A stretch of DNA of 44,650 nucleotides from a virus, in the IMG/VR virus record IMGVR_UViG_3300031578_000101, positions 1 to 44,650 of that record; one strand, given 5' to 3'. Both the position numbers and the translations under genes were made by a program. Below are positions 20,062 to 41,944 of the stretch, piece after piece. The notes beneath the pieces were generated by a model, which ran no database searches, had not been told where the DNA came from, and saw only the letters and a list, made by a program, of their open reading frames with translations. Within the stretch, counting starts at the first letter, position 1, and the number at the start of each line of letters is the position of its first letter.

Positions 20062-21731
20062 TCGTAATACCCATCATCGGCAGCTAATCGTTTCGCTTCT
20101 TCAAGGTCATCACCGGTCATGTCCAAATAACGCCTTGCTATCTGCGGTGTAAGTTTCTTGCGTTTTCCTTTTTTGGTTTTTGGTTCTTCCATTTCAGCAG
20201 CCGCAGCTCTGTAGGCTTCCCACTGTTTTTTTCTATCCTCAACTGAGGCATTAAAATCTGGCGGAGGCACTTTCAAAAGTTTGGCGTTTCTAATATCAAC
20301 AGGTGTGGGTTCCCGGCCTAAAATTTCTTTCATCTTTGTTTTTGCTTCTCGCTGCCTTAACATTTCGTTCATTTCTTCTTCTTGTCGCTCAGCTTCTTCG
20401 TCAGATATTTGGTGCAGAGCAGCAAGACGCATACCTTCAGGGTATATCTCCGATATTTTCAGCTTGTCGCCTTTGCCGGCTATCCATTTATGCCATGCCT
20501 GATTGAAATCTCCCATTATTTTATAGCGAATAGGTGCATTTTTGATATAGCCCAAAGAATCAGGATTGAGTAGTAAGCCTTTTGCATGTTGGCCTACCTG
20601 AGACATGGCACTTGAATACGACTGTTGATATTCGGCATGTATGGAACTTTGAATTTTCTCGTAATCATCCTGGCTTATTGTGGGTTCTATCGGATTATTG
20701 GGGTCGCTGTAATCGCCAAACCTTGCTACCTCAAGGTCAGCCAATACCGCATCTTTTGATTTTGCACCTGTCATTATACTGTCTACATCTTCGAGAAATC
20801 CTGACCGAACCTTTTGGTCGGTTACTGCATTGTCCCTCTTTTTCTGGACATTTACCTGACTCATTACATCTTCAAGTATCGAATCAGCATCTTTCAGACT
20901 AATTCCGAATTGCTTCAAAACCGAAGGGTCGTTGACTAAATCTTTCGCCCTGTTCCAGTCGTATCTTGGCCTGCCTTTTTCATCAACAATCGGATTGCCT
21001 GAAGCATCTCTAATAATAACTGCATCAAGAAGATTGTTACTAAACTGCTCATTCGCAACATCCTGCCGCTCGGCATCCATATCAGCCAGAGCAAACTGAT
21101 AACCTTTTGTCCTGACCTCATCGCTATCGAGTGTTGGGTTTGACCAGCCCTCTATCAGTTCGGGTTTGCCGGTCTTTTCGTTCGGTCTCAGGCCGTACAG
21201 TTCCATCAGCTCTATTTTGGCACGTTCATACGATTGCGGGTCTATAGCCTGTGCCCCGATGTCTTTTATAGTCTTCAAACTCAAACTGAAATTCTTAATG
21301 TAGTTCCGGGAATCGACACTGAATTTATGGCCCTGGACATCACTTTCCTGGCCAAGTATTTCATTGTTAAGCCACAGACCGAATTTATTCTCGGCCCGCT
21401 TATTCGTGAATTTCCGGCCCGCTTTTATTCTTTCTATTACCGCTTTGAGGCCGGGTTCGTACGATTCGGTATCGGCGTTAGTCAGAAGGCTCTGCTTGTA
21501 TTCGTGAAAGTCTCGAAGTGCCGCCGTCTTGGCGGTATTGTACTGGTCGTGGAATTTCGCCTCTTCGTCAACTTTGAGCCAATTCATTCCAAATTCTGTC
21601 AGTGCCCTGCCGGCCCGAGCGACTTCCCGGTAACCCTGCGTCATCTGTTGAATGTCCTGCCCGCTAAGAGGGACATTGCCCGCTGTCGCCGCTAATCTCT
21701 GCTGTTTATAGTATTGTGTTATCTCAGGCAT
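20058..21731 (-). CDS. Internal virion protein, 557 aa
   Basis: A long, mostly helical protein: ITQYYKQQRLAATAGNVPLSGQDIQQMTQGYREVARAGRALTEFG at the N-terminus, then repeated charged helices with DVQGHKFSVDSRNYIKNFS, and a basic C-terminus (KKGKRKKLTPQIARRYLDMTGDDLEEAKRLA). Order and character match the second internal virion protein of T7-like and BPP-1-like podoviruses, which is packed in the head and ejected into the envelope. No catalytic motif seen. ATGA overlap with the giant protein suggests coordinated stoichiometry. Confidence 0.6.
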   Translation of the reverse strand: MPEITQYYKQQRLAATAGNVPLSGQDIQQMTQGYREVARAGRALTEFGMNWLKVDEEAKFHDQYNTAKTAALRDFHEYKQSLLTNADTESYEPGLKAVIERIKAGRKFTNKRAENKFGLWLNNEILGQESDVQGHKFSVDSRNYIKNFSLSLKTIKDIGAQAIDPQSYERAKIELMELYGLRPNEKTGKPELIEGWSNPTLDSDEVRTKGYQFALADMDAERQDVANEQFSNNLLDAVIIRDASGNPIVDEKGRPRYDWNRAKDLVNDPSVLKQFGISLKDADSILEDVMSQVNVQKKRDNAVTDQKVRSGFLEDVDSIMTGAKSKDAVLADLEVARFGDYSDPNNPIEPTISQDDYEKIQSSIHAEYQQSYSSAMSQVGQHAKGLLLNPDSLGYIKNAPIRYKIMGDFNQAWHKWIAGKGDKLKISEIYPEGMRLAALHQISDEEAERQEEEMNEMLRQREAKTKMKEILGREPTPVDIRNAKLLKVPPPDFNASVEDRKKQWEAYRAAAAEMEEPKTKKGKRKKLTPQIARRYLDMTGDDLEEAKRLAADDGYYE

Positions 21732-21732
21732 A

Positions 21733-22212
21733 TTAAGTCCCCGCCGATGGTGTCTTTGACTTACTTAATAAATACATCGTTCCGATACCTGTTGCAGTAT
21801 CTGCAAAAGCCCTTATTCTTGAACTTCTGCGGGCAAGTCTGCCCTGATAGGCCGCCAACATACCCTGATTTCGCAATTGGGTAGCACTAAGCTGGTAGTT
21901 CCGCATAATAACTCGGGCATCGGCCTCGTAATTTTTGGCAGTATCGGCCAGAATAGTAATATTGCCGCCGGTAATCTCGCCGCCCTGTGCCGCCATCTGT
22001 GCGATTTGAGATGCCTTTGCCCTTGCCGCTTCTTTGCGTTTCTCGCGGGATTCGTACTGGCCGGCCTGCTCGGTCGCTTTAGCCTCGGCAATATACTGCC
22101 GCTGAGCTATCTTGCCGAGTTCGGCCTGTTCCTTACCTTCCTCTAAAGTAGAATAAGCAGATAAGCCTATTCCTGCACCAGCCGCAGCGATTGCCAAAAA
22201 TCCCAAACTCAT
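21733..22212 (-). CDS. T7 gp14-like internal virion protein, 159 aa
   Basis: Begins with a Gly/Ala-rich hydrophobic segment (MSLGFLAIAAAGAGIGLSAYST) followed by long Ala/Glu/Gln helices (AELGKIAQRQYIAEAKATEQ...REKRKEAARAKA) and a second GTMYLLSK hydrophobic stretch near the end. This is typical of the small ejected protein that forms an outer-membrane channel in T7-like phages (gp14 type). The hydrophobic start is a membrane insertion segment rather than a cleavable signal, since no cleavage motif follows. It overlaps its upstream neighbour by four bases. Confidence 0.65.
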   Translation of the reverse strand: MSLGFLAIAAAGAGIGLSAYSTLEEGKEQAELGKIAQRQYIAEAKATEQAGQYESREKRKEAARAKASQIAQMAAQGGEITGGNITILADTAKNYEADARVIMRNYQLSATQLRNQGMLAAYQGRLARRSSRIRAFADTATGIGTMYLLSKSKTPSAGT

Positions 22213-22634
22213 TCAATTATCCTCGAATACAAATATGCCGTCGAGCCGTCAGGGTTATAATTTTTCATCCCGTTGGGTGTTTCACACTTGAAACCTAAAG
22301 CCTCAACGAATCTACTGCTGATTTTAGAGTCGCATTTGATAGTCGCATGGAATCTGCGAACTTTGTACTTTTTGCCCTGTTCGAGCAGGTATCTTTTTGC
22401 CGCCCGTATCTGGCCTATAGTATTTGTCTTTTCAATCAGGTTAAACCAGACCTCGCACACACCATCCCACAGGAAAGCCGCTCCGAACGCACAAAGCGGC
22501 CTGCCGTTATCCTCCATAATCCAGGCCGGCCCCGTTCCGGCATCGAGATACATCTCGTATCTATCCCGCATCCACTGTTCTGGAAGTTTAAGGACCGCTA
22601 TATCGGCTATAGTCATTTTCCGAACACTCATCAT
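22209..22634 (-). CDS. GNAT-like virion protein (T7 gp13 / DUF2833 type), 141 aa
   Basis: The pattern ADIAVLKLPEQWMRDRYEMYLDAGTGPAWIMEDNGRPLCAFGAAF followed by a VWFNLIEKTN strand and FVEALGFKCETPNGMKNY is the acetyltransferase-like fold seen in the gp13 family of T7-like and other podoviruses. In T7 the protein is needed for virion assembly, and acetyltransferase activity is not established. It sits between nozzle and gp14-type genes, the conserved order. No signal peptide, in contrast to the nozzle genes before it. Confidence 0.7.
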   Translation of the reverse strand: MMSVRKMTIADIAVLKLPEQWMRDRYEMYLDAGTGPAWIMEDNGRPLCAFGAAFLWDGVCEVWFNLIEKTNTIGQIRAAKRYLLEQGKKYKVRRFHATIKCDSKISSRFVEALGFKCETPNGMKNYNPDGSTAYLYSRIIE

Positions 22635-24722
22635 TTAATTCTCACTAACCTCAATTTTTATTGATAACGCCGTCAGATTGAGCGGGTAGGGTTCGTTCTG
22701 GTCGAATTTCAGGCGGAGTTCATCGTCCCATCCGCCGTCTATTTCCAACCTGATTTCCCCGGTGAACGGGGCATCCGAACCCAAAGTGGTATCCGGCCAC
22801 GCCCTGAACGGAATATCGTACATTGTCGGGTCCGTAAACTGCCCGACAAGGCCGTACCGCCCGTACATCGTCTTATAGAAACAGCCGACAACCTCGTATA
22901 TTTTCTTTTTATAGCCAACCGTATATCCGGTCTGCATAGGCAGCTCAATCGGGAAAGTTATCAATGTCGATGTAAACGGCAGTCCCACAGTCGCATAAGC
23001 TACATTCGGGTCGAGTGCAATATTACCATCGCTTACAGTCGCGGTCTGGACCGAGTTACCGCCGTAAAAGACCTGTACTAACTTACCTTCCAAGTGGCTG
23101 AGTCCGGTTATAATAGCCGTTTCGTTAGAGTCATAATCCAATCCTGAATCAACGTACCAGCAGTCGTTGGCATCTGTACCCCAGTCCTGCTCTTTGAGTT
23201 TTTCGATATACCTAAGATTAACACTGTTAATCTCTCTTTGCACAACGAACCAGACATCATCTTCGGTCAGGCCGGGAATCACGGTAACGGACTCGAAGTT
23301 TCCGTCCGTTACATGCTCCGTCCAGGCTACAACGGCCTGGTCCCTGTTATACGTCAGTGATACGGCGTTGCCATCGCCTTTGATATACCACAATATCGGG
23401 TCAGGTCTGTGTTGCACGGCCACTTCCACAAGGCAGGGGTCGGTTATGTGTTCGGCGAATATCGTCAGTTCCGGCGATACGAAACTATCACTTTGCAGGT
23501 CGTAGAGTATATCCTTGACCTTGCGGCGGTTCCTATCGACAAAGACGATTGAGTCGCCTATGAGCTGGGCCTGCATACTACAGCTTCCCGATTGCGATTG
23601 ACGTTCCGAACCGATAGAAGCCGGTGTAAGTGTGGAGTTCGACGATTGACTGAAAATCCGGATCGCCGAGCCTGAAGTACCGGCTATAACCCCGCTTTTA
23701 TCCTGTAGCCAGAGTATAGGGTTTTGTTTCGCTGAGCTTGCCTCATAGACGATAGCCCCATCGTCCAGCGATGAATTTCGCATATTATCGTAATCGCCGC
23801 CGGAAACCGATGTCCAGAACCCGTTCGGTATGTATGACGTCCCTGCAAGGCATAGCCGGTTCTGGTACACACATATCGCCCTCGGATAACCCCTGTAGGC
23901 ACTCCAGGCACCCTCGGCCCATTTTGTAGTAGCTGCTATGCCGGCCAGTTCGCTATAGACAGTGGCATTAACCTCATTTGCATCGATAAAGGCCGTTATC
24001 TCAACGTATCCGGCCACATCGGTATTATAGGCCACAATGGTATATTTACAGCTTCCACTACTATAGGCACTCATAGTCAGGCGATAAGAGTAGCCGGGCG
24101 AACCTTCGTTAAAGCTATATTGGATATTGGCTGCATCGCCGTTGAGTTTCGGGTACACAGGGTCCCAGCTCGTACCGCCGTTATCGCTTTTTTCAAGTGT
24201 TACCAGACCTATCCACGTTTCTTCGAGCGTCAATAAAGCATCGCCCTCGATTGCTACCTCACTACTGGATTCGTTGGCGTCAAGTGTCCCGCTTGTGGTC
24301 GTATTGTCCGCTTTTTCGGTGATTTTCCACAGTGCCCCGACATGGTTACCGTCAAAGATATTCGCATCTGCAATCAGAGTAATTGCACCGTTGGTATCTG
24401 ACGGTGTTATTGTTGTTGTCGTGATATTATCAGTGAGGAATGGCCCCCACTGCCAGTTGACATCGGCGATTGTCCAGTCGGCGTGATTGTAACGGCATAA
24501 TTTCTGGACCGGATAGTCCGGGTGGACAAGATACATCACATCGTGGATTTGGACGTATTGTATCCCTCTCAGGTCGTTACCGTCATAAGGACTGGTTATA
24601 TAATAGGCGTAGTTCGGGTCGTTTGCATCGAGTATTTGACCGCTTGCAGCCCAGCCGGTTCTGCATAAAAAACAACAAGCAAACAGTACCATAATTTTTA
24701 ACATTTTAAGTCGTTTATTCAT
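22635..24722 (-). CDS. Tail nozzle/stabilisation protein, C-terminal half, with signal peptide
   Basis: The ATG at 24722 gives 695 residues beginning with a Sec-type signal (KRLKMLKIMVLFACCFLCRTGWAA). The rest aligns by eye with the C-terminal part of podoviral nozzle proteins: SPYDGNDLRGIQYVQIHDVMYLVHPDYP, YPRAICVYQNRLCLAGTS, a GDYDNM segment, ILWLQDKSGVIAGTSGSAIRI, a HITDP...VQHRPDPILWYI region and VRYIEKL-like NLRYIEKL. In relatives these follow an N-terminal FNAGELSP module in one chain; here that module is in separate upstream genes. A cleavable-looking signal at the exact break is striking. Confidence 0.75.
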   Translation of the reverse strand: MNKRLKMLKIMVLFACCFLCRTGWAASGQILDANDPNYAYYITSPYDGNDLRGIQYVQIHDVMYLVHPDYPVQKLCRYNHADWTIADVNWQWGPFLTDNITTTTITPSDTNGAITLIADANIFDGNHVGALWKITEKADNTTTSGTLDANESSSEVAIEGDALLTLEETWIGLVTLEKSDNGGTSWDPVYPKLNGDAANIQYSFNEGSPGYSYRLTMSAYSSGSCKYTIVAYNTDVAGYVEITAFIDANEVNATVYSELAGIAATTKWAEGAWSAYRGYPRAICVYQNRLCLAGTSYIPNGFWTSVSGGDYDNMRNSSLDDGAIVYEASSAKQNPILWLQDKSGVIAGTSGSAIRIFSQSSNSTLTPASIGSERQSQSGSCSMQAQLIGDSIVFVDRNRRKVKDILYDLQSDSFVSPELTIFAEHITDPCLVEVAVQHRPDPILWYIKGDGNAVSLTYNRDQAVVAWTEHVTDGNFESVTVIPGLTEDDVWFVVQREINSVNLRYIEKLKEQDWGTDANDCWYVDSGLDYDSNETAIITGLSHLEGKLVQVFYGGNSVQTATVSDGNIALDPNVAYATVGLPFTSTLITFPIELPMQTGYTVGYKKKIYEVVGCFYKTMYGRYGLVGQFTDPTMYDIPFRAWPDTTLGSDAPFTGEIRLEIDGGWDDELRLKFDQNEPYPLNLTALSIKIEVSEN

Positions 24723-24754
24723 TTTTCTACTCACTATTCACTAACGACTATTCA

Positions 24755-26452
24755 CTAATCTGTTGTCCTGTAAAAACCTATGTATTGATGGCCAAAAGCT
24801 AAAACGTAAGAATCGTCTGTCGAGTACTCGAAGGGGATAAGACGAATCGGGTCGTTGGGTTCTACGGTTACGGCAGCCGCTTCATCAGAAGCTAATTGGC
24901 TCCAGTAGGTATCCATCGAAGGGCTGAGAACGAAGCCGTCAGGATTGAGAATATAATTACTATTGGATTGAACCTGATTAGTTTTTACAATTTTTATCTC
25001 GCTCAAATTGTCAATATCAAGGACAACAACATGCTCGTCACCATCATAATAATAATCATCTCTTGCGAACCACATATTACCATCAGTACCCCGCCACATT
25101 GTTGCACCATATTGTATATAGCTACTGGCAAGGACATTCAGGTCTGAGTCGAATTTGAAGATATTTACAGTGTCGCCGTCATAAGTTACTTCTCCCATTA
25201 GGGCATATAAATAATTGCCTACCCATTGTAACTGAATACAACCTTTGCCGTTTTCCTGTGTTCCGAATTGAGATTGCCAAGTTCCAGATAAATCGAATAT
25301 GTTAATTAAATGCGTGTCCATTCCCCCGCCGTAGTATTGCCCGCATCCAAAAGCTACCAGACCTAATTTTTCGTGTATTGCAACATCTGCATTCATTACC
25401 TCGTTGTTTCCACTGGCATCTTCTTTTATGAAATGCAGAAGCAAATTACCATCCTCGTCAAATTTTGCCGGCCAATATCCAACAGTCGGCGTTGCTTTTA
25501 GAACATACCCACCGTAAACATTGTCATCACTATCAACACCTAATCTGCCGTATGTTCGGCTGCCGTGAGAATCGGCGGATTTCCAGACACATGAACCATC
25601 CGAAACCTGGTATTTGTAAATATCCGAAGCCAGACTCGGATTGTCGATTGTAAGCAGATAAATATATGCACCGTCACTGGTCGGGTTTGCACTCCGGCCA
25701 TATTCTGCCGCACCCCATCCGGCAGGTGGTGCATCCGCCCAAGTACCGTCAAGACTAAAATCCGTACCGTCCATTCGGAAAAGGCAAGTCTGCGAACCAC
25801 CCGCTACATAAACAGTCGGAAAGTAGATATTATAATCATCAATCACACATGGATAACCGGCACTGGTATCAATCACATTTAATAAAATTCGGATGACTGA
25901 TTCATCACCGTCAAAAGTTTCGGCGGCAAAAGGAAAACCTCTGTCTATAACAATCTCATTTATTGTATTTCCAGCTTGGACAACAAAACCAGTGGTACCG
26001 CTATAACTCGTTGTGCCGCCGAACTGGACTCTTTGACCTGCCACGAATGGATTACCTACGCACGGCAAGCCTACAATACTGCCACCAAGACTACGGGCAA
26101 CTCCGCCGGCAGTTAATTTAATATCACCATCACTCAACAATAAGCGAATGTTATTGGTCTCTTTCATAATACAGGTTACATTTTCCGGCACAGTCGGATT
26201 GTATGGGGTGTAACTCGGATAGATTATTCCTGATATTTGTCCGATGTACTCCGTCCCCGGCCTTCTTGCCGCCGCACCCTGCGGTTTGACCAGCATGTTC
26301 TCCATCTCCTCAACGCCGCTATTGCGTTTTTCAATATCTACCCGATATTTCACAAGCGGACTCAGCTCACCGGCGTTAAAAGAGCTTTCCAGCTCACCTG
26401 AAAAGGCGGTTGAGGCCATCAGCAGCAGCAATAAAATTGTTCTCAACTTCAT
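24755..26452 (-). CDS. Tail nozzle protein, N-terminal half with ~430-aa insertion, with signal peptide
   Basis: Start 26452 is chosen because GGAGATTAGA precedes it. The 565-residue product starts with a signal peptide (MKLRTILLLLLMASTAFS). The canonical nozzle N-terminus follows (25-70: FNAGELSPL, YRVDIEKRNSG, ENMLVKPQGA, RRPGTEYIG). Next comes a long insertion rich in Trp, Tyr, Gly and Asp with WD/propeller-like repeats (GTWADAPPAGWG, YGRLGVDSDDNVYGG, GTDGNMWFARDD). The final RLIPFEYSTDDSYVLAFGHQYIGFYR resumes the nozzle sequence. The flanks match the small paralogue upstream. Probably a receptor-facing or envelope-facing domain added to the nozzle; the fold is inferred. Confidence 0.75.
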   Translation of the reverse strand: MKLRTILLLLLMASTAFSGELESSFNAGELSPLVKYRVDIEKRNSGVEEMENMLVKPQGAAARRPGTEYIGQISGIIYPSYTPYNPTVPENVTCIMKETNNIRLLLSDGDIKLTAGGVARSLGGSIVGLPCVGNPFVAGQRVQFGGTTSYSGTTGFVVQAGNTINEIVIDRGFPFAAETFDGDESVIRILLNVIDTSAGYPCVIDDYNIYFPTVYVAGGSQTCLFRMDGTDFSLDGTWADAPPAGWGAAEYGRSANPTSDGAYIYLLTIDNPSLASDIYKYQVSDGSCVWKSADSHGSRTYGRLGVDSDDNVYGGYVLKATPTVGYWPAKFDEDGNLLLHFIKEDASGNNEVMNADVAIHEKLGLVAFGCGQYYGGGMDTHLINIFDLSGTWQSQFGTQENGKGCIQLQWVGNYLYALMGEVTYDGDTVNIFKFDSDLNVLASSYIQYGATMWRGTDGNMWFARDDYYYDGDEHVVVLDIDNLSEIKIVKTNQVQSNSNYILNPDGFVLSPSMDTYWSQLASDEAAAVTVEPNDPIRLIPFEYSTDDSYVLAFGHQYIGFYRTTD

Positions 26453-26453
26453 T

Positions 26454-26786
26454 CTAATCTCCAACGGTTCGATAAAATCCTATACTATTATGACTAAAAT
26501 CAAGGACGTATGCGTCCGTATCCGAATACTCGAACGGCAGCAGTCTCGATGGCGTATTGGAATCGTTGACATCGCCGATATACTCGGTCCCGGGCCTGCG
26601 GAAAACAGCCCCTTGTACCTTTACCAGCATATTCTCCATAGTCTCAGAACCCATCTGCCTCTTTTGCAAATCGACACGGTACTTCAGTAGCGGGGTCAAA
26701 GCGCCGGAATTGAACGAATTAAATAGCGGAGCCGCCACAACCATTGAGCAAAATATAATAATCGAAAAAAATACCGCCTTTTTCAT
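26454..26786 (-). CDS. Tail nozzle N-terminal half paralogue, 110 aa, with signal peptide
   Basis: Signal peptide (MKKAVFFSIIIFCSMVVA, cleavage before AP) and then the nozzle N-terminal module alone: FNSGALTPLLKYRVDLQKR, ENMLVKVQGAVFRRPGTEYIGD, then RLLPFEYSDTDAYVLDFSHNSIGFYR. It matches about 35 of 50 residues with positions 21-70 of the 565-aa neighbour but lacks the ~430-residue insertion. This is the uninserted form, and thus a tandem duplicate. It ends just before the start of its paralogue. Possible roles are a minor nozzle subunit or a mixed ring with the larger version. Confidence 0.75.
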   Translation of the reverse strand: MKKAVFFSIIIFCSMVVAAPLFNSFNSGALTPLLKYRVDLQKRQMGSETMENMLVKVQGAVFRRPGTEYIGDVNDSNTPSRLLPFEYSDTDAYVLDFSHNSIGFYRTVGD

Positions 26787-26795
26787 AGTTTAAAC

Positions 26796-28514
26796 TCAAG
26801 GCAAAGCAACTAAAACTCTCCATGCCCCGTTAGCGTACATATACACAGTGCCATTCGCACCGGCATCGGTATCAAGGTACAACGAACCCACGTTTGCCGT
26901 TCCTGGCAAAGTCGTACTGCTTGGTATAATAAGTTCGGCAGCCCCGACAAAAGAAGTCGTGCCATTAAGAGCTATATTCGTATAATCTGTCGTTCCGCCG
27001 TCGCCTATCTTGACCGAGCCGTCCGTGCCGCCTGCTGCGACTGTGGGGGTTAGAGTGATACTGCCGCCGTCTTGTCCGGGGCCAGCGGTCACAGCAGGGC
27101 CTGCTGTGATATGGACATCAGCACCTTTTTGTGGGCCACCGACAAGACCACCGCCTTGTAAATTAAGGTCGCCTGCTGGCTCAACAGTGATAACCCCGCT
27201 ATACATCACGAGGTCGCCGTCGCCGTACATAAGCAGGTCGCCACTGTTATTGAAATAGGCCTTTGTAGATGGCGCTCCAGCTTCGGTATCGGTTGAAAAA
27301 CCAAAATTACCAGAATCATCTGTACTTATCGACCAACCTGTACCAGAATCCGTGTCTAACAGGGAAATTCTTGGACTTGCAGAACGGGCGTAAAAGGCGG
27401 CATCCGCCAGACCTGAAGTATAACTGTGGGTGCTCTTGATGATACCCGTAGCTGTAGCGTGGCCTGCAAGCCGAATCCCCACATCGGCGGCCAAATCCAA
27501 ATACCCATCTGCACCAGACCAAATCTTTATCGTGCCGTCCGTCTGGCCTAAATACAGATTGCCTGATAGATAGTTGTTGGCACTTAGGCCATAAAAGCCC
27601 CAGTTGGTAACGCCTGCGGTTTGTCCTGCATCATAATAACCACAGAGCGTTGTTATATAGGCCGGGGCGGTTACTGTTACCGCACCTGTCGAAAAATGAT
27701 TAGCTTGGGTAATATACGGTGCACCTGTGGCAGTAGCACCTGGTGCTACTGCAAAACCGGAATACATACAAGATGCGGTGGTTGCGTAGGGATTGTCGGC
27801 AGAGGCGTCTACAGATTTTACTATTATCAACCCCCTGTTGCCGAACATGTTGGTAATTCTATACGAACCTGAAGGTTTCCAAGTATGACTGAAATTCAGA
27901 CCGCCAGAAATTGTCCTATTTGCCGAAGGATTGTGTATTATGGCTAGGTCTTGCCCGAAATAAATAGTTGTCGTGCCGGTATAGGTATCCATTATTCTGA
28001 ACGGCCAGTGTTCGTGAATTGTGGCATCAGAACCAAAGGCTGCGTGGCCGCCGACCAGAAGGTCGTTGGTAACATTCATATCATCAGTCGAAGTTATCTG
28101 CTCAGCGGTCAAAGTGCCTGCGGTCAGGGTGATACTATTGGCTGAAATAACCCAGTCGTTAATCAAATCCCTTGTCGCATCGATTAAAAGCGCCCATGTA
28201 TGGTCGTTTGCATCATCAAGGCCGGTAAGACCGCCGTGGTCCACCCCCACGAGAACGCTGTTAACATCATCCCAGTATAAATTCGCATCTGAAATGATAT
28301 CTCCAACAGAATTAGCGAACAGCACCTCTCCCTTACCGTGTCCGGTATTCAAAAAGAAATGGCCGCCGAGATTGGCATCGCCGGTAAACGGCCTCGAGCC
28401 TGTTACCGTAATTTCTCTTTTTGTGTCGCTTACCAGCGTATAATTTTCGCCGGAGGTATCCGCAAACAGAGAACCTGTCAGGACAATCAGTAGTAATAAA
28501 ACTGTTTTTTTCAT
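26796..28514 (-). CDS. Tail fibre/adhesin-like protein with signal peptide, 572 aa
   Basis: MKKTVLLLLIVLTGSLFA is a clear Sec signal with an A-x-A-like end before DTSGEN. The mature chain is Gly/Thr/Asp-rich with beta-repeat character, including GGHFFLNTGHGKGEVLFANS, phage-fibre-like DLLMYGDGDLVMYSG repeats, and a GGSITLTPTVAAGGTDGSVKIGDGG stretch. The C-terminus (SLYLDTDAGANGTVYMYANGAW) is typical of fibre tips. Adsorption is the likely role. It starts four codons' width from the 198-aa gene's end. No chaperone or endosialidase motif was seen. Confidence 0.6.
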   Translation of the reverse strand: MKKTVLLLLIVLTGSLFADTSGENYTLVSDTKREITVTGSRPFTGDANLGGHFFLNTGHGKGEVLFANSVGDIISDANLYWDDVNSVLVGVDHGGLTGLDDANDHTWALLIDATRDLINDWVISANSITLTAGTLTAEQITSTDDMNVTNDLLVGGHAAFGSDATIHEHWPFRIMDTYTGTTTIYFGQDLAIIHNPSANRTISGGLNFSHTWKPSGSYRITNMFGNRGLIIVKSVDASADNPYATTASCMYSGFAVAPGATATGAPYITQANHFSTGAVTVTAPAYITTLCGYYDAGQTAGVTNWGFYGLSANNYLSGNLYLGQTDGTIKIWSGADGYLDLAADVGIRLAGHATATGIIKSTHSYTSGLADAAFYARSASPRISLLDTDSGTGWSISTDDSGNFGFSTDTEAGAPSTKAYFNNSGDLLMYGDGDLVMYSGVITVEPAGDLNLQGGGLVGGPQKGADVHITAGPAVTAGPGQDGGSITLTPTVAAGGTDGSVKIGDGGTTDYTNIALNGTTSFVGAAELIIPSSTTLPGTANVGSLYLDTDAGANGTVYMYANGAWRVLVALP

Positions 28515-29111
28515 TTAGTACCCGTAAGCGATACAATTAACGTGCAGATAGCCCGATGACCTGTTGGTTATTATACATTTTGCCGTTTTCCCACTCTCTC
28601 GGCCAATTACAAGAGATGCCGCACCGTCCTCACCTGCGTTATTTTGTGCGGCAACAGTGCCATTCCATGCCTCTACAGGGGTAGAGATAGTATCCACCCA
28701 ATTAGTATTGGGGTCGCCGGAACCACTGGCAAGTTCAGCAAGCGTTATGGGATTGTGAGATAAAAGCATTGCACCTACAGTCGCATTGCAATCAGCAACC
28801 ACCTGACCGTTATTTCCATAATCAGCGATATAAAACTTGAAACTAAACGTCTCGCCATCTGTGGTCAGTGATTCTCCGTTAGGGTCATTCGGCTCGGTAG
28901 CGTAGAACATGACCTTTAACGTGCTCCATGTCGCAGGTATCTGTGTCCAGCTTTTAGCGTAAGCCCAGCTTGCAGTATTAACGTCAAGTGCCGTATCGTT
29001 GGCCTCGACAGCCGATATCAGCACTGCCGTCATCTGTGGCGTATAAATCTCGTCTGCCCGGGCCGAACCGGCCATAATCAAAACAAGTATGAGAAACAGT
29101 ATCTTTTTCAT
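28515..29111 (-). CDS. Secreted tail-region hypothetical protein, 198 aa
   Basis: Signal peptide MKKILFLILVLIMAGSARA with a textbook A-x-A cleavage site before DEIYTP. The mature protein is beta-rich with Asp/Asn/Ala/Thr bias (EANDTALDVNTASWAYAKSWTQIP, FYIADYGNNGQVVADCNATVG) and ends in SSGYLHVNCIAYGY. No domain recognised; it may be a fibre-associated or receptor-binding lobe. Its signal sequence closely resembles that of the beta-helix protein at 30023-31672, suggesting that signal modules have been copied among these genes. Confidence 0.55.
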   Translation of the reverse strand: MKKILFLILVLIMAGSARADEIYTPQMTAVLISAVEANDTALDVNTASWAYAKSWTQIPATWSTLKVMFYATEPNDPNGESLTTDGETFSFKFYIADYGNNGQVVADCNATVGAMLLSHNPITLAELASGSGDPNTNWVDTISTPVEAWNGTVAAQNNAGEDGAASLVIGRESGKTAKCIITNRSSGYLHVNCIAYGY

Positions 29112-29124
29112 TTCAAAAATCTCC

Positions 29125-29976
29125 TTATCCTAATGCTTGAAGTTCGTTATTGGCACCATCCCGCCAATCGGTATTTCCCTGTTCATTTTCGTTGAAAGTT
29201 TCGTCCCCGTTGGCCTCTCTTGCGAAAAGCCACGCTGCCTCTAATTCATAAGACACCTTTGAGCGCACTCTCTGATTCTCTGTGATATTAGGGGACAGGA
29301 TATCGGCCAGTCTTGCCGAAATTAACCTGTGGAACCAGTTCGGCATTATAGTTACATCGCTTACAGTCGTGCTCTCAGCCTCACCCATCCATCTGTTATA
29401 GTGCCAGTAGCAGTCATAGTAATTTGTAAAGATGATTTTGCCTTCCCTGTGATACCGATATTTGACATCATCATAATTCGCTGCCCCAAGACCTCTTATA
29501 AAGAGCTGGTCGGTCGGCATTAAGTATCCGTAATCGTTCCCGCCAATATCAAGGGCCTCATCGACAACAGGATAACCAGTAGCGCAGTCCACACTATTGA
29601 CGCCATCGCTGATAATCTCGCCATCGGTAAAGTCTCCGCTCGGCTCGGTCACAAGGTAAGTAGTGTCGTTTAACCTGGCGACTACTACGCAGGTTTTCAG
29701 ACTCGTTGCCCCTGTTAAGGTTGCCCCAACCGCCCACACTGCCACCGTAGGTGCCGTATCGACCGTCAGCTTGTTAATGGCCGTCATATCGTCCGTGTGG
29801 ATCCTTCTGCGACTGAAGATCCAGTCTTTAGACAGCAATTCCTTGACGATATCCTCGAAGATGGCAGCGATTTTATTGACATGAGGTGTACCGTCAGTCA
29901 GCAAAGTAATCAGTTTTTGGCCCACAGCCAGTAAAGCTATATTGGTAATCGCCGCCTTTTCATCTGCATTTGCCAT
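29125..29976 (-). CDS. Tail adaptor (gp11 / tail tubular protein A type), 283 aa
   Basis: The N-terminus (ADEKAAITNIALLAVGQKLITLL...AAIFEDIVKELLSKDWIFSRRR) has the adaptor pattern of podoviral connector rings: an I-x-N-x-AL helix, then a helix ending at K-x-W-x-F. A beta insertion at about 75-150 is larger than usual. The C-terminal half (MPNWFHRLISARLADILSPNIT ... SYELEAAWLFAREANGDETF) is typical of this family. Unlike its neighbours it has no signal peptide, as expected for a protein assembled on the portal in the cytoplasm. Confidence 0.65.
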   Translation of the reverse strand: MANADEKAAITNIALLAVGQKLITLLTDGTPHVNKIAAIFEDIVKELLSKDWIFSRRRIHTDDMTAINKLTVDTAPTVAVWAVGATLTGATSLKTCVVVARLNDTTYLVTEPSGDFTDGEIISDGVNSVDCATGYPVVDEALDIGGNDYGYLMPTDQLFIRGLGAANYDDVKYRYHREGKIIFTNYYDCYWHYNRWMGEAESTTVSDVTIMPNWFHRLISARLADILSPNITENQRVRSKVSYELEAAWLFAREANGDETFNENEQGNTDWRDGANNELQALG

Positions 29977-29984
29977 ACATCACC

Positions 29985-30015
29985 ATGAAAATACAGGGGG
30001 CAGTTTCCTGCCCCC
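29985..30015 (-). terminator. Intrinsic terminator between beta-helix gene and tail adaptor gene
   Basis: On the minus strand GGGGGCAG pairs perfectly with CTGCCCCC around a GAAA tetraloop (30015-29996), followed by TGTATTTTC. It lies 8 bp after the stop at 30023, so it should reduce transcription from the head/spike genes into the tail genes. Confidence 0.7.
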
Positions 30016-30022
30016 GTTAAAA

Positions 30023-31672
30023 TTAGAATCCGCCGCCTGCTCCGGCAGTTACAGCACCCGTTGAATCCAAAGGGGTCCACCAGACATGCCATTTAATTGT
30101 GCCCAATGTTCCGGCACTTGTTCCAATGGTATACCCGACATCAAGACCTCCAACAATCACAACGTCCGTCAATACATGCGTAAGAGAGGAATGGGCCTCG
30201 CCTACACCAAGAGGGTATGTCGGAGCACCGGCATAAACCGCCGAAGCAACCTCACCTAAATCCCAGTCATCTACGTTTGCCGAAGCCCAGATAGCAGACG
30301 TATTACCAGCAACTCCCAACACAATAGTCGCATTGGTTCCCGCTGACACGAGGTTCTCGTGGGTACACTCCGCCATTATCGTCATCCTGACATTACCCGT
30401 TACATCAGCTATCTCGTGAGCAGCTACTGAGTTCCACGTTACACTCGTCATATTGGCGTCAATCGTGAAGTAGTTCGGATGACTATAAGAAGGCAGGGCC
30501 GCAGCTTCCAACTGTCCGATGTTAGCATCCTGCAAACCTCGCCAGGTTGTTATGAGCGTAAAGTTTGCATCGTGCAATCCGGCAGCCGTTACCAGTGTTT
30601 TGGAGTTAGCGTCATTCAGAGCCAGAAAATCTTCTATCTGTTGGATGTTGGCATCCTGAGCACCAATAGAGTCTATTAAACCACCTTCGATAACCCAGTT
30701 AGGCAGACCATCTGTATCGGCAGTCGTAGACAGGGTGTTTCGTGACTCAAACATAGAGCCTGCATCGAGGATTTTGAGCACTGTATCGGCAATCAGAACA
30801 TTATCCTCAACCAGACCCGTTGTAGCCGCTGTAAACTCGACTGCAAACTCGCCCGAGGTAAGGTTTTGGATAGTGTTTCCTTTGATTAAGGCACCCAGAC
30901 TGACATTGTCGCTCCATACAGGGGCCGAGGAATACTCACCGACAATCGTACAGCCGTAAACAACAGGTCTGTTGACATCTGCAAAGTCGATTGCCGAGGT
31001 AGCTCCTGTTGCAAGCCTGCTGTAAATTGTGCAGCCTTTTATTGCAGGGTCATCAGCACCGGCTGACGTAACGATGAACTTGTCAAATTCATAAGTTGAG
31101 GTATTCGGCTCAGGTGCAACGCAGTCAATCATTGTAAAGTTATTGCCCGTGACATATATACCTGTCGTCACCTCCGTTACGCCTGCCAGTAATCTAAGGT
31201 TGGATATCGTTACATTGTCAGCACTTGCAATTACATTTGCATCGGCGATACCGTATGTAAATGTCGGAGCAAGTGTGCCTTCGCCACAACCCCAAATCAC
31301 AATCCCGTTACAATCAGCATTCCACATAGCAGCACCACCAGTGTAGTCGGATTCGGCGTGTCCCTGAGCGACAAGAATCACATCGCCGTTATCGGCAGTA
31401 CAGAGGTCAATGGCCGCCTGGAGAGTGATTTTAGCCTTGTCCCAGCTCGTACCATCGCCTTGAGTCGCACTACTATCGACATAGTAGATATTACCCGTGC
31501 CAATCTGACCGCCTAACCTGCCTTCCATACCTTCAAGGCACTTTCGGAGCGTGTTACTCGGAAAATCGGAATAAGTATCCGTCTCCCCCCATCTAATATC
31601 AAATGCCGAGGTGTAGCCGAAAGCCGAAGTAGCCATAATCAGCATTATCAAGAGAAAAATTAACTTTTTCAT
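30023..31672 (-). CDS. Secreted right-handed beta-helix protein (spike-like), 549 aa
   Basis: Signal peptide MKKLIFLLIMLIMATSAFG then a beta-helix: repeated turns such as VTISNLRLLAGVTEVTTGIYVTGNNFTMIDC, AIKGCTIYSRLATG, PVVYGCTIVGEYS and LIKGNTIQNLTSGEF (about 140-300). A segment with recurring DAN triplets (about 325-400, EDFLALNDANSK, GLHDANF, GLQDANIGQ) follows, then a beta-rich C-terminus ending GAGGGF. Such folds make tailspikes that bind or cut polysaccharide; no catalytic residues are evident. It is framed by hairpins at both ends, placing it in its own expression unit between cement and adaptor genes. Confidence 0.6.
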   Translation of the reverse strand: MKKLIFLLIMLIMATSAFGYTSAFDIRWGETDTYSDFPSNTLRKCLEGMEGRLGGQIGTGNIYYVDSSATQGDGTSWDKAKITLQAAIDLCTADNGDVILVAQGHAESDYTGGAAMWNADCNGIVIWGCGEGTLAPTFTYGIADANVIASADNVTISNLRLLAGVTEVTTGIYVTGNNFTMIDCVAPEPNTSTYEFDKFIVTSAGADDPAIKGCTIYSRLATGATSAIDFADVNRPVVYGCTIVGEYSSAPVWSDNVSLGALIKGNTIQNLTSGEFAVEFTAATTGLVEDNVLIADTVLKILDAGSMFESRNTLSTTADTDGLPNWVIEGGLIDSIGAQDANIQQIEDFLALNDANSKTLVTAAGLHDANFTLITTWRGLQDANIGQLEAAALPSYSHPNYFTIDANMTSVTWNSVAAHEIADVTGNVRMTIMAECTHENLVSAGTNATIVLGVAGNTSAIWASANVDDWDLGEVASAVYAGAPTYPLGVGEAHSSLTHVLTDVVIVGGLDVGYTIGTSAGTLGTIKWHVWWTPLDSTGAVTAGAGGGF

Positions 31673-31755: not shown

Positions 31756-32211
31756 TTAACTCGGTACTTTCTGAATCGCATCGTTTAGCGTTATTGGTGC
31801 AATGTGGAAATAGGCATCGACAGTGCTTCCAGTTGTCAATGTATCACTGACTGGGTCATAGAACAGACCCACGAAACATTGTGTCAGCGGGACACAAACT
31901 TGGATGTTCTTCACGCATCCAGATACCAGTTCAGCCATTGAAACAAAGCAACTTCCGAGGTCGATACAGGAACTCGTCATATTGGCATTGTCGCAGGACC
32001 GCAGATAAATGTTCATACCTGCCGCACCACCACTACCGGCATCGGCATTTGCGGGAATGATTATATTCACTACCCCGACAAGCTGGTCGTTGGTGAGTAT
32101 GGTTGAACCGCCAGAAGCAGTAAGTTCCATATCGAAAACATGCGTGCTGACGACTCCGGTATTGGTAAGAGCACCTAACGGCTGAGCATCACTAAAACTA
32201 TAATCTCTCAT
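31756..32211 (-). CDS. Capsid cement/stabilising protein (BPP-1 Bbp16-like), 151 aa
   Basis: The N-terminus MRDYSFSDAQPLGALTNTGVVSTHVFDMEL is characteristic of the Bbp16-type capsid cement family. A DQLVGVVNIIIPAN strand, an IYLRSC strand and a jelly-roll-like ending (TVDAYFHIAPITL) follow. It is encoded directly downstream of the major coat gene, as in BPP-1, where cement trimers sit at coat interfaces. Six cysteines (for example SCDNANMTSSCIDLGSC) are more than expected and could form disulfides. No signal peptide. Confidence 0.7.
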   Translation of the reverse strand: MRDYSFSDAQPLGALTNTGVVSTHVFDMELTASGGSTILTNDQLVGVVNIIIPANADAGSGGAAGMNIYLRSCDNANMTSSCIDLGSCFVSMAELVSGCVKNIQVCVPLTQCFVGLFYDPVSDTLTTGSTVDAYFHIAPITLNDAIQKVPS

Positions 32212-32247: not shown

Positions 32248-33279
32248 TTAAGCTACAACGGCTTGGGTATTTGTGAGAACGGTCGTATCAATTACGCGGA
32301 CAGGAATGTCCTGGAAAACCTTTACCCGTCTGCCGAAAATTTCCGTTGTCGGCCACAGGATATTGTTTTTCTTCAGGGCGTAGACGTCCATCTGGGAAGC
32401 GATAGACCTGTTGACATACATTCTCGTTCGGGACACATCAAAGGAGCCGTCGTTGATAAGCTGGATTATGTTTTCAACAGCGCCATCACTGAAGGAATTT
32501 GTCCCGTTCATAGTAGGGTTGATATTGGCAAGACGGCCAATCTTCCTGTTATTGCCGACAGCAAGGCCCAGCCACGCCTTGAACTGAGCGACATAGGCGT
32601 AATACTTGGCGTTCACATCTGTTTCAACTTCAAGACAAGGCTCTTTGCCCTTGTCGTGTATCGCGACACCCAGTGCGGTATTCTTCATCCAGCCGGGCGG
32701 ATAGATGCCGTAGGCTCCGCCTGTTTCGTCCGTGTTCCATTCGACAAGAAGTATTGACGTAGTCACAGAGCCAGCACCGGTATACCCGTTTGACCGAACA
32801 TTGTTTAATCCGGTGGGATTCAGGGCATCCAATCTTTGGAGTAAACCGTTAATGTGCTCGCCGCCGTCAGCTTGTGTACCATTGATAAAGGAACTGACTA
32901 CATCTTCGCCGAGTTTGCGGGCATGTGCTTCGTCTTCCTGGCGTAACTTTACGCCCGGGTTGGCGAGGGTATCGATTTCATCTTCGTCAATTTCACGTCT
33001 CCGCTCTTTGAGCATGACATCTTCATAAATGACCTGCTTATTGAGCTTCGAGGAAACTACGCCCTTGTAGAATGTACGGTTTGTGCTTGCTACCATTCCC
33101 GTATCACGGACAAGCCTGTGTTTCAGGCCCATGTTTGCTTCAACGAATGGTATATCGTTGAAGAAATCGTCCACAAGCTGATTCATCACCTTGATTAGGG
33201 GCAGGACGGTTTTACCGTCAGAGGTCTCTTTCGCCCTGTCCAGCAAGGTATACTTGGTGTTGATATATTGTGTACCCAT
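32248..33279 (-). CDS. Major capsid protein (BPP-1-like), 343 aa
   Basis: HK97-fold coat candidate by size, position after the scaffold gene and sequence layout. The N-terminal arm (LDRAKETSDGKTVLPLIKVMNQLVDDFFNDIPFVEAN) and central E-loop-like FYKGVVSSKLNKQVIYEDVMLKERR resemble BPP-1-type coats, as do a FINGTQADGGEHINGLLQRLDAL helix region and a C-terminal AWLGLAVGNNRKIGRLANI and PVRVIDT strand. A structured leader RNA precedes it, and a strong TTAAGGAGTTATTCGA ribosome-binding site supports abundant synthesis. Confidence 0.8.
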   Translation of the reverse strand: MGTQYINTKYTLLDRAKETSDGKTVLPLIKVMNQLVDDFFNDIPFVEANMGLKHRLVRDTGMVASTNRTFYKGVVSSKLNKQVIYEDVMLKERRREIDEDEIDTLANPGVKLRQEDEAHARKLGEDVVSSFINGTQADGGEHINGLLQRLDALNPTGLNNVRSNGYTGAGSVTTSILLVEWNTDETGGAYGIYPPGWMKNTALGVAIHDKGKEPCLEVETDVNAKYYAYVAQFKAWLGLAVGNNRKIGRLANINPTMNGTNSFSDGAVENIIQLINDGSFDVSRTRMYVNRSIASQMDVYALKKNNILWPTTEIFGRRVKVFQDIPVRVIDTTVLTNTQAVVA

Positions 33280-35118: not shown

Positions 35119-36816
35119 TTACGCCGCATCCCTCATATTACTCAAAACGCTGTCTGCTTCGATTTTCTTACTCAAATCAGGGACTGCCTTCGCAGCCTGA
35201 GCCATAATAGCCATCTGCCTGTCCTCTGCCTGCTGCTGTGCTGCTATAGCCCTAATCTCCAATACTTCATCTTTCGACAGGATAATATCTTCAGGAGTAT
35301 TGCCTGATTGCAGTATCTTTCGCATCAGTTCATCGCCTTCGATAACGACATTAGAATCAGGTGCCACCGCTAAAGCCTCCCTGATATATGCAATCGTAGT
35401 CAGCAGGTTTCCTGTCTCATAGTATTGCTTCAGCATTTGCGAAAGCGGGCCTATGTACTGGATATCTATTCTGCCGTTCTGGGCCTCCAAAACCTCTTGT
35501 GGCGGTTCCGGTGCCCTGCCAGCATCTAATTCGATTGAGTATATCCTGTCGAACTCAAGGTCTGTCGTAGTGCCTAACGTCCCCAAAAACGGAGCCATCA
35601 AGGTCGCCCTTTCAGCCTGTCTCATACGAGCTTCGCCGAGTGTCTTTGATGTCGAATCGGCATTTAGACCCAAGAATAACGGAACTCCGAACCGCTCCTC
35701 TACCATCGCCTGCCAGCGTTGATGATTATCAATCCCGAACGGATAGCCGCTACTATCTATCAACCGTGCTATCAGGTCGCCCATCTTTACGCCCTGCATC
35801 TCACGAGTACCAACGAAATTAACCGCACCAGCTCCCATATCCAATTTGTGTTTGAGAGCCGATGACATTGCCATTGGCGGTCTTGCCCCTAACTGTGAAG
35901 CCAACAGCATATCTTTTGACATCAAATTGCAGGTCAGTATCTCAATCAGCATCTGGGATACCATACCCCTGCCGTAAGCCTCGTGTGATGGCCGGCCAAG
36001 TGCCCAGGGTATAGGATTCAAGGTCGGTGTCCCCGTCTCCCTCATCATAATGCCGCTGACATTATCACCAGAAGAGGTAACATTGACATAGTAATGCTGC
36101 CAGGGCATGTTCTTTACGCCGATTTTGTCCGGCTCGTAATCCTTGTTCTTGTATATGCCGTGAATTATATCGACTGGGGTATCAGGGCTATTTTCCAAAC
36201 TTTGAATCTGGGTCTGACTCAAAGCCTGTTTACCGAACTCGTCCACAACATCCCTTACTGTTCGGCTACTGAACTTGTGGTGTATACCTACGACACGGCC
36301 CCACCAGTCCCGCCTGACCCAGAACTCCCTCGGATGTGGTGCCATTGTCATTAACTTGCCACTATCCGAATCTTCATCGATGAACAGGTACGCATCGCCC
36401 GGGGCTGCTGCGTCTTTGATAGTTACAAGTTTCTGCTCGTAATAATTGCTTTGATTGAGAACGTATCTGAGGTGTTCGTCCGTCTCCTGCAGCCATCTGC
36501 GGACATTCTTTGAATCTCTTAGTTTTCGTTCTGCCATCTGCAAGGCGAACCAGTTTATCTCTTTCGGCATATAATGGCCGATAAGTCCGTTTGACCATAT
36601 ATCCAGCCCGCGAAAAGCGGTAGCATCGTACACTTTACGGACTTTGGTATTGCTCTTTCCTGCCTGGCTGCCGAGGACGGAATCTCGATAATCCCACTGG
36701 TCAGACCGGCCCGGGTAGCTCAAAGCGGTAGATATTTGCTTCAGGGCTTCATACGGCTTGCGTATCGTTTCGAGCCTGCCCTGTTCATCTATGATGTTTT
36801 TGGGGGTCTTAGTCAT
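35119..36816 (-). CDS. Portal (head-to-tail connecting) protein, 565 aa
   Basis: A podoviral portal of the head-tail connector family: QISTALSYPGRSDQWDYRDSVLGSQ at the start, GLDIWSNGLIGHYMPKEINWFALQM, a FWVRRDWWGRVVGIHHKFS strand region, SRTVRDVVDEF, and the stem/crown part LNPIPWALGRPSHEAYGRGMVSQML ... RMRQAERATLMAPFLG. The C-terminal ~100 residues are a helical barrel-like domain. AAGGAGCGGTTTGG before the ATG is a strong start. The upstream 35-aa ORF overlaps it as ATGA. Confidence 0.8.
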   Translation of the reverse strand: MTKTPKNIIDEQGRLETIRKPYEALKQISTALSYPGRSDQWDYRDSVLGSQAGKSNTKVRKVYDATAFRGLDIWSNGLIGHYMPKEINWFALQMAERKLRDSKNVRRWLQETDEHLRYVLNQSNYYEQKLVTIKDAAAPGDAYLFIDEDSDSGKLMTMAPHPREFWVRRDWWGRVVGIHHKFSSRTVRDVVDEFGKQALSQTQIQSLENSPDTPVDIIHGIYKNKDYEPDKIGVKNMPWQHYYVNVTSSGDNVSGIMMRETGTPTLNPIPWALGRPSHEAYGRGMVSQMLIEILTCNLMSKDMLLASQLGARPPMAMSSALKHKLDMGAGAVNFVGTREMQGVKMGDLIARLIDSSGYPFGIDNHQRWQAMVEERFGVPLFLGLNADSTSKTLGEARMRQAERATLMAPFLGTLGTTTDLEFDRIYSIELDAGRAPEPPQEVLEAQNGRIDIQYIGPLSQMLKQYYETGNLLTTIAYIREALAVAPDSNVVIEGDELMRKILQSGNTPEDIILSKDEVLEIRAIAAQQQAEDRQMAIMAQAAKAVPDLSKKIEADSVLSNMRDAA

Positions 36817-40430: not shown

Positions 40431-40550
40431 TTAAAAACCAGTATTCAAAAGATAATCGTCCAGAACGACAATCGCAATTCCCATCGCTATAAGAACCAGC
40501 CACATAGCAACTATCCCAAAAGCGATAATCAGGGCCATGCGGTTAGTCAT
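40431..40550 (-). CDS. Single-TM mini-protein, 39 aa
   Basis: ATG at 40550 with TTTTGGAGAAGGA before it; overlaps the methyltransferase stop as ATGA. The 39-residue product is mostly one membrane helix (MALIIAFGIVAMWLVLIAMGIAIVVL) with a short acidic end. Such phage mini-proteins often act on membrane partners (holin regulators or exclusion peptides). Confidence 0.55.
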   Translation of the reverse strand: MTNRMALIIAFGIVAMWLVLIAMGIAIVVLDDYLLNTGF

Positions 40551-41224
40551 TCCTTCTCCAAAACTATCGTATAGAACATTCCGCCTAACGGCAAGATTTT
40601 TTCAAGCCACTTTATGACAGGATACAGGAAAGTTGGCACAAGTTGAGGATAGCTATGCCCGCCTGCCAGCAGATATGCCAGCGATGTATGAGTTTTAATG
40701 TTGATTATTTCAAGCTGCGGGTATAGTTTTTTGAAATACTTAACATCCCGGAAAAAGAGTATCCAGGCCATCGCATTATTGACCGGCTCCCAGTACAAAT
40801 CCGGCCTGAAGGATTCGAAGTGGAATCTATAAATCAATCTTGACCATCGTGTATTGGCCGGTTCTATTATCAGGATTTTGCCGCCCGGCTTCAGGCAGCG
40901 TAGAGCCTCGTTAAAAAATGTTTCCGGTCTTAAATGATGCAGGACATTTATCAGAAGGAACGCATCTATCGTCTCTGCCCCGAATATCATATCCATCGCT
41001 GAAAAGCACATATCCGTCCCGACTTCCTGAACGTCTGAGGTAAAAACAAGGGGCATAATCTCTTTGACCCAGCCGTTACCGCCTTCGCCCAGCTCGACTA
41101 TGACTTCATCACGGTGTTTCCGTAATCGAGAAAGAGGACTGCTATAATTATCACTTGCATAGAGACAATCCCGCATCTGCCGATACCAACCAAGATACAC
41201 TTTTTTGAGTAATCCGTTTCTCAT
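40547..41224 (-). CDS. Class I SAM-dependent methyltransferase, 225 aa (first of two)
   Basis: Motif I is VIVELGEGG (41-49), atypical but Gly-rich. Motif II/III is AFLLINVLHHLRP and post-motif LKPGGKILIIEP, a classical Methyltransf_11 layout. The C-terminal half (FHFESFRPDLYWEPVNNAMAWILFFRD) has aromatic and membrane-proximal character like lipid- or glycan-modifying methyltransferases. It is probably a small-molecule or glycan enzyme rather than a DNA methylase, since no target-recognition domain or catalytic DPPY/PCQ motif is present. Confidence 0.7.
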   Translation of the reverse strand: MRNGLLKKVYLGWYRQMRDCLYASDNYSSPLSRLRKHRDEVIVELGEGGNGWVKEIMPLVFTSDVQEVGTDMCFSAMDMIFGAETIDAFLLINVLHHLRPETFFNEALRCLKPGGKILIIEPANTRWSRLIYRFHFESFRPDLYWEPVNNAMAWILFFRDVKYFKKLYPQLEIINIKTHTSLAYLLAGGHSYPQLVPTFLYPVIKWLEKILPLGGMFYTIVLEKE

Positions 41225-41941
41225 TTAATCACCCTGCCCATTCTTAAATAGTTTTGGTGAAACTAAGGTCAATACGGCCTTGTAATACTCATCACACATC
41301 CCACCATAACTCACTGCCGATACGAATAAAGCAAAGTCCCGCATCTCGTCCTTTGTCAATAACAACATCTTCGTCAGGTCAAGTATCACGCTAAAATCAC
41401 TTACCCAAACAGTCATTTCACAGCTTACGGCCTCTGTGGAGAATGCTATCTTGTGACTATCGTCAATTGTAATTGCTATGTCCGCCAAGTCGTCCTCCAA
41501 ATCGTAAGATACTTCATAGAAATTGGGGTCATAAAGTAAATTTAGACTTCTAACGAGTTCAGAATTTGGGTCTATGATAATCTCGGTTCTGCATATCATA
41601 TTGCAATCCACCTCTTCGAATCCCAACTTCTGTTTGAAATCGTCAAGGGTGAAATCTCTTGTTACGCCGTCAAGTATGATTCTAATATCAGTGTAATAAT
41701 CACAATTACTCTGACATCCATTACGAAAGTCACTAACTTGATTAGAATCAATCGAAATACTGTATGCTACGCAGAGCGGAACAGTAAAATCTATGGGTTC
41801 TTCTATCGTACCAATAGCCTCAACATTAGTAAGAGTGCCTATGCTCCGTGTCTGTTTGGCTTTACCTAAAAAGGCAGCTATATACAGACCGCCCAAAACA
41901 ATGATTATCCACAACAAAACACAATAAGATTTCCATTTCAT
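41225..41941 (-). CDS. Membrane-anchored exported protein, 238 aa
   Basis: An N-terminal hydrophobic anchor (KSYCVLLWIIIVLGGLYIAAFLG) is followed by a beta-rich, Asp/Asn-rich exported domain with paired cysteines (NGCQSNCDYY, CNMIC). No cleavage motif is clear, so a single-span anchor facing the periplasm is likely. It starts three bases before the methyltransferase gene. Superinfection exclusion or envelope modification are possible roles. No family recognised. Confidence 0.5.
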   Translation of the reverse strand: MKWKSYCVLLWIIIVLGGLYIAAFLGKAKQTRSIGTLTNVEAIGTIEEPIDFTVPLCVAYSISIDSNQVSDFRNGCQSNCDYYTDIRIILDGVTRDFTLDDFKQKLGFEEVDCNMICRTEIIIDPNSELVRSLNLLYDPNFYEVSYDLEDDLADIAITIDDSHKIAFSTEAVSCEMTVWVSDFSVILDLTKMLLLTKDEMRDFALFVSAVSYGGMCDEYYKAVLTLVSPKLFKNGQGD

Positions 41942-41944
41942 TTT

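Follow-up and report, generated by a model that had tools for sequence, protein, structure and literature searches.

Predicted Sec signal peptides on the outer virion proteins of an epsilon15/HTVC-type podovirus clade and a possible two-compartment route of tail assembly

The 44,650-base IMG/VR virus record IMGVR_UViG_3300031578_000101, analysed at its full length and referred to here as the window, carries nearly all of its genes on the minus strand and contains a podovirus structural block in which six genes of the tail region begin with sequences resembling Sec signal peptides (SPs). The block runs in the order terminase, portal, scaffold, capsid, cement, spike, adaptor, nozzle, GNAT/gp13-type protein, gp14-like protein and large internal proteins, which matches the gene order of epsilon15, Carin1 and HTVC-type podoviruses. 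The six genes, with the residues that follow each predicted cleavage site, are:

22635..24734, minus strand: tail nozzle, C-terminal part with its own SP at ~24642-24722 (MNKRLKMLKIMVLFACCFLCRTGWAAS, then GQIL)
24755..26452, minus strand: duplicate nozzle N part with a large insertion; SP at ~26399-26452 (MKLRTILLLLLMASTAFS, then GELE)
26454..26786, minus strand: tail nozzle, N-terminal part; SP at ~26733-26786 (MKKAVFFSIIIFCSMVVA, then APLF)
26796..28514, minus strand: fibre/spike-like protein; SP at ~28461-28514 (MKKTVLLLLIVLTGSLFA, then DTSG)
28515..29111, minus strand: small beta-rich protein of 198 amino acids (aa); SP at ~29055-29111 (MKKILFLILVLIMAGSARA, then DEIY)
30023..31672, minus strand: beta-helix spike; SP at ~31616-31672 (MKKLIFLLIMLIMATSAFG, then YTSA)

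SPs were detected with a home-made, rule-based scorer for signals of the Sec/signal peptidase I (SPI) type, which accepts 10/10 known E. coli SPs and which, within the structural block, picks exactly these six genes (22635, for example, with a score of 6.64). The six N-termini are as the initial annotation had described. They fit the Sec/SPI pattern of a basic n-region, a hydrophobic core (h-region) of 8-12 residues and small residues at positions -3/-1, placed at a true N-terminus, and in most of the six the small -1/-3 residues and the short h-region are typical of cleaved SPs. The hydropathy of the h-regions is 2.6-4.0 in the SPs vs 2.0-3.1 in ten E. coli SPs. A Tat signal was rejected, as none of the six N-termini has an RR motif with a long weak core, and a lipoprotein signal likewise, as none has a [LVI][ASTVI][GAS]C lipobox; spread of the SP as a copied DNA cassette is disfavoured because the six SP sequences, seen directly, are too different from one another. 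Pfam and NCBIfam assign no family to the SP-bearing proteins of the window.

The use of a rule-based scorer, and the fact that three of the six genes lack a clear Shine-Dalgarno (SD) sequence, could be taken to mean that these N-termini are non-functional, that is, chance hydrophobic extensions, products of a wrong start or assembly artefacts. The background is low: 18/996 open reading frames (ORFs) score in related phage loci without the trait, which puts the chance of six SPs among ~14 structural genes at P ~9e-8, shuffled N-termini score as SP in 0.1-1.6% of trials, and none of the 124 internal Met positions scored in ten non-SP structural proteins passes. Chance hydrophobicity was rejected because of this low background and the shuffle results. 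An SD sequence stands at the SP start of 28515 (TAAGGAG), 24755 (GGAG) and 30023 (AAGG), while in 26454, 26796 and 22635, which lie within tightly packed runs of genes, it is weak or absent. For 24755 the GGAG sits 6 nt upstream of ATG 26452, a likelier start than TTG 26464, and for 22635 an SP results from every one of three candidate starts. Start codons downstream of the h-regions, through which the SPs could have proved spurious, were checked in the six genes and none has an SD, so that a start-codon artefact was also rejected. Together with the clade-wide occurrence and the pattern of SP divergence described below, these data leave the non-functional reading nearly refuted already, and they confirm, at the level of sequence, that the six genes encode real Sec/SPI-like SPs.

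The initial annotation had further noted that adaptor, gp13-type and cement proteins are devoid of such signals. None of the three scores, and the specificity extends to the major capsid protein (MCP), the portal, the scaffold, the gp14-like protein and the large internal proteins. The SP-less genes of the block include:

20058-21731, minus strand: large virion-region protein
21733-22212, minus strand: gp14-like internal virion protein
22209-22634, minus strand: GNAT/gp13-type protein
29125..29976, minus strand: head-tail adaptor (gp11-like), phrog_394
31756..32211, minus strand: cement-like protein, identity from gene order
32248..33279, minus strand: MCP, phrog_212
35119..36816, minus strand: portal (head-tail connector), phrog_332

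The adaptor serves as an internal control, being SP-less though placed among SP genes. Relative to phrog_394 it contains an extra domain of ~80 aa (residues ~70-138 of 29125-29976), pieces of which match L136, where the match is a nozzle, L142 and L146, loci that share that domain alone; the domain therefore looks mobile.

A point absent from the initial annotation is that three of the six genes derive from a single nozzle gene that has been split and duplicated. The products of 26454, 24755 and 22635 all belong to phrog_376, the epsilon15/HTVC-type tail nozzle: 26454 covers positions 4-92 of the family (E 4.9e-25), 22635 covers positions 101-711 (E 1.2e-150), and 24755 shares 56% identity with 26454 over the common part and carries an insertion of ~450 aa. 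The clade nozzle profile matches PDB 8ck1_A ('Tail Nozzle', E 2e-98) and 9efk_M, and the place of the nozzle between the adaptor and the GNAT/gp14-like genes is kept. Judged by these alignments, the nozzle gene of the window is split and each piece has its own predicted SP. The same split nozzle with an SP on every piece occurs in L006, and in L129 the N part is again separate; the nozzle is unsplit in L008 and L009 (807-810 aa, one SP) and reaches ~1,250 aa in L007, L124 and L126, with Laminin_G_3 domains in L007. The large insertions in clade nozzles (window 24755-26464; L006:10324-13641; L007:9953-13714) lie at or near a common point, just after an RRPGT motif or a FYR..GQI stretch, and are beta-rich domains outside L007. 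SP-bearing nozzles have fewer K+R and more D and N, a difference that is confounded by kinship and was given no weight.

Insertions of an extracellular type, such as Laminin_G_3, might suggest that these proteins are secreted decoys or adhesins only and no longer virion parts, one of the readings offered by the initial annotation. For the nozzle this is disfavoured: the fuller genomes, 44-46 kb records that are possibly incomplete (G000, G001, G002 and G007), each hold one nozzle locus, and no second, SP-less nozzle was found in them. The nozzle is thus not a spare decoy, since the single copy is the SP-bearing one; it is also homologous over its full length to structural nozzles, and its gene order is shared with cultured phages in which the nozzle is structural. 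We consider the decoy reading quite improbable.

Relatives of the window were collected by IMG/VR scans with nozzle and adaptor alignments, which yielded ~8 further genomes (L131 and L135 are one sequence and were counted once); a first, protein-only scan of viral contigs had found nothing. The pattern proved to be clade-wide, which the initial annotation had not foreseen. An SP is present on the nozzle in 8/8 homologues, on the spike in 8/8, on the 28515-type protein in 5/5 (for one of these, L123/L006, the called ORF is too long, and the SP was recognised by visual inspection of alignment A8) and on the fibre in 4/4, while none was found on any clade homologue of the portal, scaffold, capsid, cement, adaptor (0/9), GNAT, gp14-like or 20058-type proteins. 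Across the clade, predicted SPs are thus limited to outer particle proteins, and the head and inner parts are without them. The SPs also drift beside mature residues that are kept: identity is 6/18 in the SP vs 48/59 in the following residues for the nozzle N part of the window and L006, 5/17 vs 41/57 for the nozzle C part, and 6/19 vs 53/60 for the nozzle pair L071/L089. To judge from these alignments, this is the behaviour of working signal peptides, which are kept for their physics.

An SD stands at the SP start in 33/46 clade SP genes vs 62/94 other genes. In half of these SP genes (23/46) an in-frame ATG lies inside or just after the SP, which would be in keeping with dual products, namely an SP form exported for superinfection block, surface adhesion or decoy and an SP-less virion form made from the internal start. 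Only one of these 23 internal ATGs has an SD, however, and in that gene the ATG is the genuine start of the SP; moreover, the nozzles of L007, L008, L124, L126 and L127 have no such ATG, and Met is common in h-regions. Dual products are thus an unlikely explanation, though less so than decoys alone.

As to the other SP-bearing proteins, the model of 30023 resembles phage tailspikes, with low confidence outside the beta-helix, and its only homologue in GenBank phages (MW202647) is encoded directly after the MCP gene and has no SP. The mature N-terminus of 26796 is conserved (alignment A5), and by sequence the protein looks like a fibre. Two cysteines of 28515 are invariant across six homologues (alignment A8), and its AlphaFold model shows an SP helix at 2-16 followed by beta strands (mean pLDDT 64); the AlphaFold models of 28515 and 30023 are of low to moderate confidence. 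The tripeptide DAN is ~12 times commoner in SP-bearing than in other clade proteins; composition predicts 9 occurrences in the former and 32 were counted, most of them in the window and L006.

Outside the tail region, the window encodes a DUF5131 protein and two methyltransferases (3398-4249, 40547-41224 and 43135-43803). Three adjoining genes at 41225-42654 (41225, 41945 and 42301) have hydrophobic N-termini and no family match; they also score in the SP scorer, as membrane or lipoprotein genes would, and the N-terminus of 42301, with a lipobox-like FCAGC, resembles that of a lipoprotein. They are perhaps lysis or envelope genes.

Beyond the clade, the signals are the exception. In Carin1, epsilon15, BcepC6B and HTVC203P the nozzle is a single protein without an SP that starts a few residues before a conserved F.AGE.SP motif, most other nozzle homologues are equally SP-less, and none of the cultured relatives examined has an SP in the tail block, which bears out the view in the initial annotation that such signals are unexpected on structural proteins of tailed phages. 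Among nozzles of Verrucomicrobiota prophages 0/24 have an SP; given this and the SP-less majority of homologues, the SP as a general trait of the nozzle family or of PVC prophages was rejected. A genome scan for prophage relatives returned only SP-less ones, in Verrucomicrobiota and one Bacteroidota genome. A small protein of L009 (8000-8212), with an SP, and of L141 (232-813) contains a dockerin-like motif (DYNKDGIVNLKDF); such motifs are common in Planctomycetota and may hint at the host, but a planctomycete host stays a guess.

SP-less homologues of the nozzle, cement and spike begin at the same mature residue as the SP-bearing forms. In group 2 (L071-L074 and L089), which is nested among marine HTVC-like phages, SPs occur on the nozzle and the cement, and the group 2 cement can be aligned with its SP-less counterparts in L014, L019 and L065 starting at the first residue of the mature protein. 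On a tree of 70 nozzles, built by a quick method with the SP residues cut off before alignment and showing some long branches, at least two trait changes are needed; nozzle SPs arose independently, with at least two origins, a repeated gain that the initial annotation did not contain. The soil phages L207, L210 and L216 (L207:1951-2376, L210:1562-1996, L216:168-6337) also have SPs, not on the nozzle but on a small protein that is encoded next to the capsid gene and has four conserved cysteines and, in L216, on a tail-spike-like gene.

Of the readings in the initial annotation, a tail part built across the envelope fits this distribution best. Sec signals lead to export and cleavage, and high h-region hydropathy favours co-translational targeting. 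The outer parts (nozzle, spikes, fibres and the 28515 protein) of this epsilon15/HTVC-type clade would be made as Sec preproteins, and their very hydrophobic SPs would direct them, probably co-translationally, to the inner membrane, before trimers that fold fast could do so in the cytoplasm. They would then be exported, cleaved, and folded and oligomerised outside the cytoplasm, while DNA-filled heads closed by the portal and the SP-less adaptor would form within it; nozzle and spikes would join these heads once lysis breaches the inner membrane. The strongest clue to the compartment is the split nozzle, each piece of which kept or gained an SP; this is what export leads one to expect, because pieces that fold together must meet in one compartment. 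The invariant cysteine pair of the 28515 family and the four conserved cysteines of the soil-phage SP protein likewise fit an oxidising compartment. Since packaging takes place in the cytoplasm and terminase, portal, capsid and adaptor are SP-less, outer and inner parts could meet only if export is incomplete, as in membrane tethering, or if the inner membrane is opened. We give about even credence to the proposal that the outer parts are Sec-exported and joined around lysis to DNA-filled heads of cytoplasmic origin; export, cleavage and late joining are each inferred from the signals. The fuller proposal, in which the exported nozzle, spikes and fibres dock on adaptor-closed heads at lysis and the route has evolved more than once, is put forward tentatively, somewhat short of an even chance.

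Several points weigh against export. In group 3 (L111:5822-8516, L114:5862-8604, L117:5854-8548 and L118:5952-8631) scaffold, capsid and cement lie in a row with hydrophobic N-termini, mostly with an SD (for instance the capsid, MKIMFIGNPVLALLSWLLAPAVRFA followed by SQDTHMFEQF), and the hydrophobic part is variable while the remainder is conserved. Scaffold and capsid are not plausibly exported, and in this group the hydrophobic N-termini may serve membrane tethering, with membrane-bound head assembly as a possible consequence; it is mainly because of group 3 that our confidence in the export route is not higher. The nozzles have no conserved cysteine pairs: the cysteines of group 1 nozzles are not conserved, and group 2 nozzles have almost none. 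Disulphides as the reason for nozzle export were rejected on these data, the 28515-type and soil-phage proteins alone fitting such a role. In addition, we know of no tailed phage that exports its nozzle, and retention of the DNA by the head before the nozzle arrives is an unexplained step of the export model.

Group 3 leads to the main competitor of export, membrane-tethered assembly, in which the SPs would bring proteins to the inner membrane without full export and virions would be completed there, with or without later cleavage; in one variant, nozzle and spikes would stay on the cytoplasmic side or be signal-anchored. The hydrophobic, SD-preceded N-termini of the group 3 scaffold and MCP fit tethering better than export, and the high hydrophobicity of the SPs would suit it as well, whereas the small -1/-3 residues and short h-regions of cleaved-SP type in most of the six, the conserved cysteine pairs in two families and the usual outcome of a Sec signal, translocation of the domain behind it, all count against it. 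We regard tethering as a minority possibility with a real though clearly smaller share of the probability. The new role in virion maturation envisaged by the initial annotation would correspond to an uncleaved membrane tether of this kind, and it keeps its place among the candidates.

The phages themselves are recognisable podoviruses. Their nozzle is homologous over the whole protein to that of epsilon15, HTVC010P/HTVC203P and Cobetia phage Carin1 ('tail tubular B', phrog_376; PDB 8ck1 and 9efk) and stands in the same neighbourhood of MCP, cement, adaptor, nozzle, GNAT, gp14-like and large internal proteins, but the known nozzles are SP-less single proteins. Here an SP is added, and in the window, L006 and L129 the nozzle gene is split or duplicated and every piece has one. 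Coat and membrane-associated virion proteins of filamentous phages are similar in being virion proteins that use bacterial SPs and the inner membrane; filamentous phages, however, are not nozzle-bearing tailed dsDNA phages, and their extrusion involves no pre-filled head. Among tailed phages, SP-endolysins and SAR endolysins are likewise Sec-exported before lysis, but they are lysis enzymes rather than virion structure (for an example, see PMC8951688). Lom, an exported phage surface protein (PMC12309495), and superinfection-exclusion proteins are SP-bearing phage proteins of the envelope, but they are accessory, unlike the nozzle, an essential tail part of which the fuller genomes have one copy. 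A search of open-access papers turned up no description of SPs on the nozzles or spikes of tailed phages.

In the textbook account, the assembly of tailed phages is wholly cytoplasmic, and export-coupled assembly, if shown, would be a new assembly route. The export reading gives a clear prediction on the N-termini in virions. If it is true, the search for and annotation of tail proteins would change, because a phage gene with an SP is often annotated as a host or accessory gene, disulphide bonds and other modifications on the envelope side would become possible in virion parts, and a tailed virion could be put together from two compartments.

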